Shown: piece by piece, positions 10,810 through 12,483 of the stretch
Numbering within the stretch: position 1 is the first letter of the stretch
Layout: each line of letters opens with the position of its first letter
NCBI RefSeq assembly: GCF_016881005.1
Contig: NZ_JACOPV010000018.1
Location: 62,001-126,000, forward strand
DNA length: 64,000 nucleotides
DNA from: Pseudomonas arcuscaelestis
GTDB taxonomy: Bacteria; Pseudomonadota; Gammaproteobacteria; Pseudomonadales; Pseudomonadaceae
Direction: 5' to 3'
Notes under the pieces: model-generated
The model's database searches: none
Told to the model about the DNA's origin: nothing
Seen by the model: the letters and a program-made list of their open reading frames with translations, nothing else
Position numbers and translations under genes: made by a program

Positions 10810-12483
10810 TTACTGTGCGCGGTGAAATCCTTCGATACCCTGCGCCACCAATTGCGCAGCCAGCGCCTGCACCTGAGGGTGATTGAAAAATGCCTGCAAC
10901 TGCTCGGCGCGCGTTGACCCGATGCCGGGCATGGCGGACCACTGGCTGGAAGTTCTCGCGGTCAGTGAGGACCAGTCAGTATTCAGCTCGATGTTTAGCG
11001 TTGCCGGTACTCCCAAGGCGCGCAACCATTGCTGGAAAGGGCGTGTGCGTGCGTGTGCGACCTCTTGCAGCAGTCGCGCTGCGCTTGCCCCCGGTAGCGG
11101 ATGCAATTGTTCGTGGCTCAGGGCCAGCCAGTCGGCGAGGGTGGTTACCAGTCCAGCCTGTACTAGTTTTCGCCATGTCGCGACGCCAACGTGCGACATA
11201 TCCAGCCCTTGCTTACCGCTCAACCAGGCAAGCCGAGCAATGAACTGTTCCTCGCAGCCGTGGCTGGGCTGCCAGCAACTCAACGGGTGAAACTGCTCAC
11301 TTGCTGGTGACAGCACTGTCACCCGCTGAACAGTACGATGAACGACTTGCTCCAGGCGCGGGATGGTCAGGCCGGCCAAGCTTATTGCGACCTGATCGCC
11401 GGGGCGGATGTCTGCGGACTGCCATCGAGCCAGCGAGCCGACATTGACTTGAGTGATACGCCGATCATCCAGGGTGATGGGCTTTAACTGCAGGACTGGC
11501 GTGATCTTGCCAGTGCGACCGATTCTGAAGTGCACATCGCGTACTTCAGCCAAGGCTTGGCGAAAGGGATATTTCCAGGCAGCAATCCAGTAGGGTGCTT
11601 TGGCTTGCCAGCGTTGCGCCGGCGGTCGACTGTCCTGGCGCAGGACCACGCCGTCAGTGGCAAACGGCAGCGCCGACTGGTACCACTGCCGGCGCCAGTG
11701 AGCGGCTTCATCCTGGCTTGCGATGGCGACGCTGTAGCGCTGGCTGTCGGCAAAACCCAGGTCGGCGAGCTTTGCCAGGCGCTCAAGTTGCGTTGCGGGG
11801 CCCTCGGGCCAGTCCCAAACGAATAAACCGACACCGGCGCCCAGGTCATCGGACAATTGCTTGCGGGCCATCAGTCCGGCCACGGTGCCGCGGGCGCCGA
11901 TTCCTCCGGCAGTCGATTGCACATGGCTTTCAAGGCGCCAATAAAGCTCGCCTTGAAGGGTGATGTCGAGGGCCAGAGGTAGGGTCCGGGTGATGCTGGC
12001 GAGGTAAGGGATATGCCGGCTCCAGTCATGGCCCTGCCGGCCATCGCCACGGCTGAGCAGTTGCACCAGTTGGCCCTGCTGATAGACCAGCGTGACAGCG
12101 ACGCCGTCTACCTTGGGTTGAATCCAGATGTCCTGCTTGCCGTGCATCCAGCGAGCGACTGCTTGATCATCATTCAGTTTTGCAACGCCAGTGTGCGCAA
12201 TGGGATGGTCTATCGGGCCTCGAGCGCTGGCGAGCGGATCATCAAAGTCGTGCAGACGGAAACAACCTTGCAGATATTTCAGGTGCTCCCGGCTCTGGTC
12301 ATAGATTTCGTCGGCCACCAATGAGATGCCCAGGCGATGGTAGTGTTCATCCCATCTGGCCAGGGACTCGCGTAACTGGGCCACTTCAATACGCGCGCGC
12401 TCGGACGTCCACGTGGGGCACTCCTGTGCCTGGATTGTGGATAAATAGAGCGCAAAGAGAACAGCGAGCAGCTTGGGCATCAT
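10810..12483 (-). CDS. ligB: NAD-dependent DNA ligase LigB, with an N-terminal signal peptide
   Basis: 557 aa from ATG 12483 (GGAAG 7 nt upstream); a second ATG follows at once. Seen: adenylation motif KVDG with Lys124, the same residue number as in E. coli Lig[15 protein letters not shown] of the OB-fold; helix-hairpin-helix segments near the end. It is shorter than LigA: no BRCT domain, and only two of four zinc-finger Cys (SCW...HGC). The first 20 residues form a textbook Sec signal ending in QAQ-E. Only four Cys are present, and the N-terminal two (22 and 74) look conserved in E. coli LigB. LigB seals nicks in vitro; its place in the cell is unclear. Confidence 0.92.

Follow-up and report, generated by a model that had tools for sequence, protein, structure and literature searches.

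LigB of Pseudomonas arcuscaelestis, a probably exported NAD-dependent DNA ligase with a conserved predicted signal peptide and invariant cysteines

The ligB gene and its product

The window analyzed in the current work is a stretch of 64,000 nucleotides of Pseudomonas arcuscaelestis (contig NZ_JACOPV010000018.1, positions 62,001 to 126,000), the minus strand of which carries, at 10810-12483, an open reading frame of 557 amino acids starting at ATG 12483, which an earlier inspection of the letters alone (the sequence-only reading) had put forward as a secreted DNA ligase, LigB. The encoded protein scores 758 bits against NCBIfam NF005987 (“NAD-dependent DNA ligase LigB”, cut-off 498) and matches PF01653 and PF03120, which represent the adenylation and OB domains of NAD-dependent ligases, while Pfam returned no match to PF14743, the OB domain of LigE with its ATP-dependent architecture, in this protein, and no BRCT match in its C-terminal part. 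The features of the gene and its product are the following:

12492-12496, minus strand: Shine-Dalgarno-like AAGGA, 8 nt upstream of ATG 12483
10810-12483, minus strand: ligB, encoding the precursor (557 aa plus stop) of an NAD-dependent DNA ligase that is probably exported
12427-12483, minus strand: predicted signal peptide, residues 1-19, by a rule-based test
12418-12420, minus strand: Cys22 in an invariant Cys-Pro (138/138 LigB), predicted disulfide partner of Cys74
12262-12405, minus strand: domain Ia, NAD/NMN-binding helical hairpin, approximately residues 27-74, with Tyr48, Asp58 and Asp62 invariant
12262-12264, minus strand: Cys74, final residue of helix 2 of domain Ia in the model, predicted disulfide partner of Cys22
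11566-12135, minus strand: adenylation domain, residues 117-306 (PF01653 match)
12103-12114, minus strand: KVDG, nucleotidyltransferase motif I, with Lys124 as the expected adenylated lysine
11332-11550, minus strand: OB-fold domain, residues 312-384 (PF03120 match)
11254-11277, minus strand: Cys403-x6-Cys410, corresponding to the last two of the four zinc-site Cys of LigA and kept as a remnant, possible second disulfide
10813-11253, minus strand: C-terminal helical part, corresponding by comparison with LigA to the helix-hairpin-helix region

A separate LigA is encoded in the same genome. LigA, which is cytosolic and carries a BRCT domain, shares with LigB domain Ia, the adenylation and OB domains and the catalytic residues, and it is among LigA structures that Foldseek found the best matches to an AlphaFold2 model of LigB (built from 67 LigB sequences; mean pLDDT 94.4, pTM 0.87). 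The nearest named LigB relatives are found in Pseudomonas, as judged from the best 80 of 470 confirmed loci. The LigB of E. coli (yicF) belongs to the same family, NF005987, is 41% identical to the window protein and, like it, is without a BRCT domain (cited in PMC5507437).

For comparison, a set of 138 LigB sequences was assembled from the window copy (L005), E. coli MG1655, these 80 Pseudomonas loci and 56 loci from genomes of two orders; 37 of the 38 LigB carriers in the window's order were taken in, G375 being left out as its gene ends at a contig end. As near-copies are present among the 138, conservation figures were derived from a 68-row set with less than 72% mutual identity. Twenty-seven LigA sequences served as controls, both for the signal-peptide rule described below and for the comparison of cysteines.

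Lys124, Asp126, Gly127, Glu179, Arg198, Asp277 and Lys304 are invariant across all 138 LigB sequences, as are Tyr48, Asp58 and Asp62, with Tyr61 present in 134; position 49 varies (His 101, Tyr 17, Phe 12, Trp 6, Arg 2). By analogy with LigA, these domain Ia positions are the residues involved with NAD. Since the catalytic residues that were checked do not vary, LigB catalysis appears to be under selection; conservation thus indicates that the activity of the enzyme has been maintained, the donor to be expected being NAD. A fixed change lies beside the active site, at codon 122 (window positions 12118-12120), two residues before the catalytic lysine, where Gln is found in 138/138 LigB and Glu in 27/27 LigA.

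Adjoining ligB at 10292-10762 (minus strand) is a DUF1090 gene whose product has a signal-like N-terminus. The same neighbor is found at 79 of the 80 Pseudomonas loci and at 6 of 25 others of the same order, and at none of 11 loci of a deep branch (see below) or of 20 enterobacterial loci, with flanks of about 1.5 kb; gmk (18/20) and yicG (16/20) adjoin ligB in the enterobacterial loci only. None of the eight neighbors tried is conserved as a partner gene across LigB loci, the flanks again being about 1.5 kb outside the 80 Pseudomonas loci.

The N-terminus and the cysteines in LigB and LigA

The signal-peptide test was a rule of our own, which asks for an n-, h- and c-region followed by a -3/-1 motif, is unbenchmarked on proteins of known location, and leaves the choice of start codon free, with equal freedom for LigB and LigA. 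The N-terminus of the window protein shows the three regions of a Sec signal peptide and passes the rule from ATG 12483, with predicted cleavage after Ala19 (A19|Q20); with free choice of the start, the best-scoring codon is an upstream TTG at 12528, which leaves the place of cleavage unchanged. The hydrophobic core on which the sequence-only reading had based its signal peptide is thus present, and the n-region contains a single Lys. Its cleavage site “of A-x-A type” exists as a -3/-1 site, the likely sequence of which (I-Q-A|Q) is no strict A-x-A, and Cys22, which it had placed directly after the cut, is at +3. A lipobox with Cys at +1 is absent from the window protein (A-Q-E-C) and only one of the 138 sequences has a lipobox-like motif (LAAC, in L004), which speaks against reading LigB as a lipoprotein, and this reading was rejected.

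By this unbenchmarked rule 134/138 LigB have a signal peptide, versus 1/27 LigA, where the sole sequence that passes has a long frame and does so from a start some 180 residues ahead of domain Ia. Lack of conservation of the signal peptide among orthologues had been set beforehand as the result that would count against secretion, and the opposite was found. Restriction to ATG starts gives the same count for LigB (134/138, or 66/68 in the non-redundant set). The four sequences failing the rule (L046, L106, L112 and L126) have strongly hydrophobic N-termini with His or Asn within the core, and still look like signal peptides. Hydrophobic stretches (2.2 and 2.8) also lie upstream in two LigA controls, L012 and L014, neither of which passes. 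Hydrophobic-run and 28-mer statistics cover 55 and 60 of the 68 LigB, respectively, the remaining sequences having too short an upstream frame.

The composition of this region is preserved at low sequence identity. From -15 to -8 before Cys22, none of the 68 non-redundant LigB carries a charged residue at any position, and pairwise identity is just 0.10-0.27. Ala occupies -3 in 44/68, and [AV]xA occurs within the eight residues before Cys22 in 45/68 (shuffled mean 25, maximum 34); a looser -3/-1 rule gives a small excess (67/68; shuffled mean 56, maximum 65). With regard to translation starts, an ATG lies 14-36 codons before Cys22 in 137/138 LigB genes, and a Shine-Dalgarno 4-mer precedes the signal-peptide ATG in 118/138, a somewhat generous figure since any of several ATGs was allowed, versus 39 of 750 internal ATGs. 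An ATG between 3 codons before Cys22 and Tyr48 is present in only 16/138, and given this rarity a conserved form that starts at ATG and is without the signal peptide is not apparent.

As the sequence-only reading had stated, the window protein has exactly four Cys, at positions 22, 74 (in LQGCF), 403 and 410. Each of them is invariant (138/138 LigB), and in 128 sequences the mature part contains no others, the remaining ten having between five and seven. The N-terminal pair that this reading had attributed to E. coli LigB was also found, in MG1655, one Cys following the hydrophobic stretch (VWAVCPAW) and one lying in WQRCFG; E. coli LigB has the same four Cys in its mature part as the window protein, together with a signal-peptide-like N-terminus that contains a fifth Cys. 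Taken together, the passing of the signal-peptide rule by 134 of 138 orthologues and the presence of the four Cys in all of them indicate that the N-terminus of the window protein is unlikely to be due to chance.

In LigA the picture is different. Its four-Cys site, which provides the zinc ligands, is complete in 27/27 sequences; the last two of these Cys align with Cys403 and Cys410, and the first two are absent from all 68 aligned LigB. The column of Cys74 holds a Cys in 0/27 LigA. The gap of LigA at the column of Cys22 proves nothing because the LigA rows of the alignment begin 22 residues before the Ia motif, and uncut frames were therefore checked: 26/27 LigA have no Cys from the probable start Met up to the Ia motif (in two frames without a Met the upstream stretch was used instead), the exception, L019, being an odd frame with one. 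LigB has thus lost half of the zinc site and, unlike LigA, possesses a predicted signal peptide together with a Cys pair.

In the AlphaFold2 model Cys22 is situated just before helix 1 of domain Ia and Cys74 is the last residue of helix 2, and since these two helices form a hairpin, both Cys would be located at the same end of the domain. The earlier suggestion of a Cys22-Cys74 disulfide is strengthened: this bond is a well-supported prediction, based on the invariance of both residues in LigB and the absence of a Cys74 counterpart in LigA, and disulfides in LigB are in general likely.

Distribution of LigB and its relation to LigE

In a quick tree with midpoint rooting (68 LigB and 27 LigA), LigB forms one clade apart from LigA with support 100. 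A deep branch of LigB (L136-L146), with 26-32% identity to the window protein, has kept the predicted signal peptide and the four Cys, from which it follows, under midpoint rooting, that both probably date back to the common ancestor of the LigB sequences sampled. The members of this branch score under the NCBIfam NF005987 cut-off, and annotation pipelines may therefore miss or misname them.

The distribution of LigB in the class is patchy. A draw of 369 genomes across the class yielded four with matches above the cut-off; in the window's order 38 of 293 genomes carry LigB at E 1e-90, and in the order containing the relatives of E. coli 20 of 295 do. A scan of 388 genomes of the phylum gave no LigB outside the class (at least 643 bits in 38 genomes, the next best 298). 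A ligB match is present in 5371 of 5426 complete E. coli genomes.

LigE is a known DNA ligase with a predicted signal peptide (PMC4220977, PMC8455567, PMC10799422, PMC12221376), this being predicted in 144 of 208 representative proteobacterial LigE sequences (PMC8455567), and it is reported to affect biofilm in Neisseria gonorrhoeae (PMC10799422, PMC12221376). LigB resembles it as a proteobacterial accessory ligase with a predicted signal peptide, and differs from it in that LigE (PF01068 plus PF14743, predicted periplasmic) uses ATP whereas LigB uses NAD. Eight LigE loci were retrieved, and at the seven whose N-termini were inspected by eye these are signal-like. The LigE literature also reports that removal of the leader raises LigE activity, and by analogy a similar effect is conceivable in LigB, where it might account for the weak activity of the enzyme.

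The LigE marker PF14743 was found in 65/293 genomes of the window's order and 138/295 of the order of E. coli's relatives. Two weak matches in the former, both in LigB genomes, were set aside, leaving 63; their ORFs, of 457 aa (in the genome of the window) and 327 aa (in G595), have no signal-like N-terminus and look phage-type by eye, and they were not counted as LigE. The ligase-like 457-aa ORF of the window's own genome lies on contig C88 (L196, 439-1812). With this count, LigB and a LigE-type ligase occur together in none of 588 genomes of the two orders, where 17.5 were expected, and no genus has both, versus 8.7 expected (p ~1e-5 ignoring phylogeny), the genome lists having been confirmed by script for the window's order and by eye for the other; one family, f197, includes both LigB-bearing and LigE-bearing genomes. 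Such mutual exclusion may reflect two interchangeable solutions, though it follows family lines and phylogeny may explain much of it.

Location and role of LigB

The conserved signal peptide, the invariant Cys and the intact active site lend support to what the sequence-only reading had proposed, and we consider it probable that LigB is an exported, active NAD-dependent DNA ligase. In the open-access literature searched, no statement that LigB is exported was found, and an earlier prediction may exist elsewhere. The ligase named in a surface proteome of E. coli O157 is LigA (PMC12551062) and was discarded as an instance of LigB; an ATP-dependent LigB (PMC5052709, PMC518961), a crystal conformer (PMC6144786) and the LigB of Leptospira, where the name has a different meaning, were set aside, and PMC12210888 merely lists ligB as up-regulated by a peptide.

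In E. coli, the main evidence against export consists of the repair phenotypes of a ligB deletion, unless these reflect a dual fate or indirect effects. Loss of ligB raises the sensitivity to peroxide and mitomycin C, delays recovery from cadmium and gives a weak mutator phenotype, and DNA replication is blocked when LigB is overexpressed (PMC5507437); that paper reads LigB as an intracellular enzyme of base excision or mismatch repair, with periplasm, secretion and localisation unmentioned. These observations would suit a cytosolic back-up ligase for such repair, in which the hydrophobic N-terminal stretch is there by chance or as a vestige, yet survival of UV, bleocin and ciprofloxacin is unaffected by the deletion (PMC5507437). 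A vestigial stretch should moreover decay, whereas hydrophobicity and lack of charge persist down to 26-32% identity, and the loss of zinc-site Cys together with the gain of an invariant Cys pair has no evident cytosolic reason; on balance a purely cytosolic LigB seems unlikely. The overexpression plasmid, pCA24N, presumably adds an N-terminal tag, which could disturb export when LigB is overexpressed. If LigB were part exported and part cytosolic, through slow export or an internal start, the repair phenotypes and a biofilm phenotype would both be real, and both kinds are indeed reported, the deletion forming 1.6-fold less biofilm (PMC5507437). The scarcity of internal ATG starts and the placing of the Shine-Dalgarno signal at the signal-peptide ATG speak against such a double fate, which we regard as quite unlikely.

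Two further possibilities accept export and differ as to what becomes of the protein. LigB might stay at the outer face of the inner membrane by an uncleaved signal anchor or a lipoprotein signal, as the Cys near the cut and the LAAC of L004 could suggest; considering that this is the only lipobox-like motif in the set and that the hydrophobic stretch ends in a -3/-1 motif in 134/138 sequences, anchoring is highly improbable. It might, alternatively, be no ligase in practice and act as a DNA-binding or NAD-consuming envelope protein. Purified E. coli LigB seals nicks with NAD at less than 1% of the activity of LigA (cited in PMC5507437), for which reason it might be a poor ligase wherever it is located, and the long growth lag upon overexpression is likewise caused by the K124A variant, so that Lys124 is not needed for this effect (PMC5507437). 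The Gln that replaces the Glu of LigA two residues before Lys124 points in the same direction, yet the seven catalytic residues from Lys124 to Lys304 are invariant throughout LigB, and a non-ligase function is very unlikely.

Returning to an exported, active ligase, the export, disulfides, substrate, NAD source and role that we infer for LigB would be connected as follows. The precursor would be exported by Sec and cleaved near A19|Q20, and the mature protein would fold in the periplasm, or go further out, into an active NAD-dependent ligase, probably stabilised by two disulfides in place of the LigA zinc site: Cys22-Cys74 would hold together the two ends of the hairpin in domain Ia, and Cys403-Cys410 would form within the zinc-site remnant. 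Once beyond the cytoplasm, such an enzyme would seal nicks in double-stranded DNA, for instance those made by periplasmic or secreted nucleases in DNA of lysed neighbors, whose lysis would also release the NAD; we know of no periplasmic NAD supply. LigB of E. coli, Pseudomonas and some relatives would then have the role that LigE is thought to have elsewhere. Nick sealing in extracellular or periplasmic DNA as the substrate and role of LigB is a tentative proposal, in which our confidence is limited, and the basis for a role in extracellular DNA or biofilm, namely the reduced biofilm of the E. coli deletion (PMC5507437), is circumstantial. DNA uptake, the other role raised by the sequence-only reading, found no support in the present analysis.

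An observation on regulation in E. coli concerns a periplasmic nuclease, EndA. In one and the same table, ligB (in the E. coli locus L003, 7489-9171) is 3.6-fold and endA 2.4-fold up in a cpxR deletion (PMC2731931), which implies that Cpx would repress ligB; this is a hint only, the significance marks of the table being lost. Ligase and nuclease may accordingly share envelope-stress control.

In a more general form, which we advance as a conjecture and somewhat doubtfully, proteobacteria would possess a class of extracytoplasmic DNA ligases, either LigE with ATP or LigB with NAD and with the zinc site traded for disulfides, that counteract secreted or periplasmic nucleases and, drawing on cofactor from lysed cells, maintain DNA in the periplasm or outside the cell. 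If this were true, the weak activity of E. coli LigB would result from assaying a reduced or signal-bearing form. Export of LigB would recast the second NAD ligase of E. coli, known for its very weak activity and puzzling phenotypes, and would explain its broken zinc site. E. coli and Pseudomonas would then have, in LigB, an NAD-dependent equivalent of the predicted-exported LigE, and the idea that DNA is joined beyond the cytoplasm, including the source of NAD, would become testable in standard laboratory strains.
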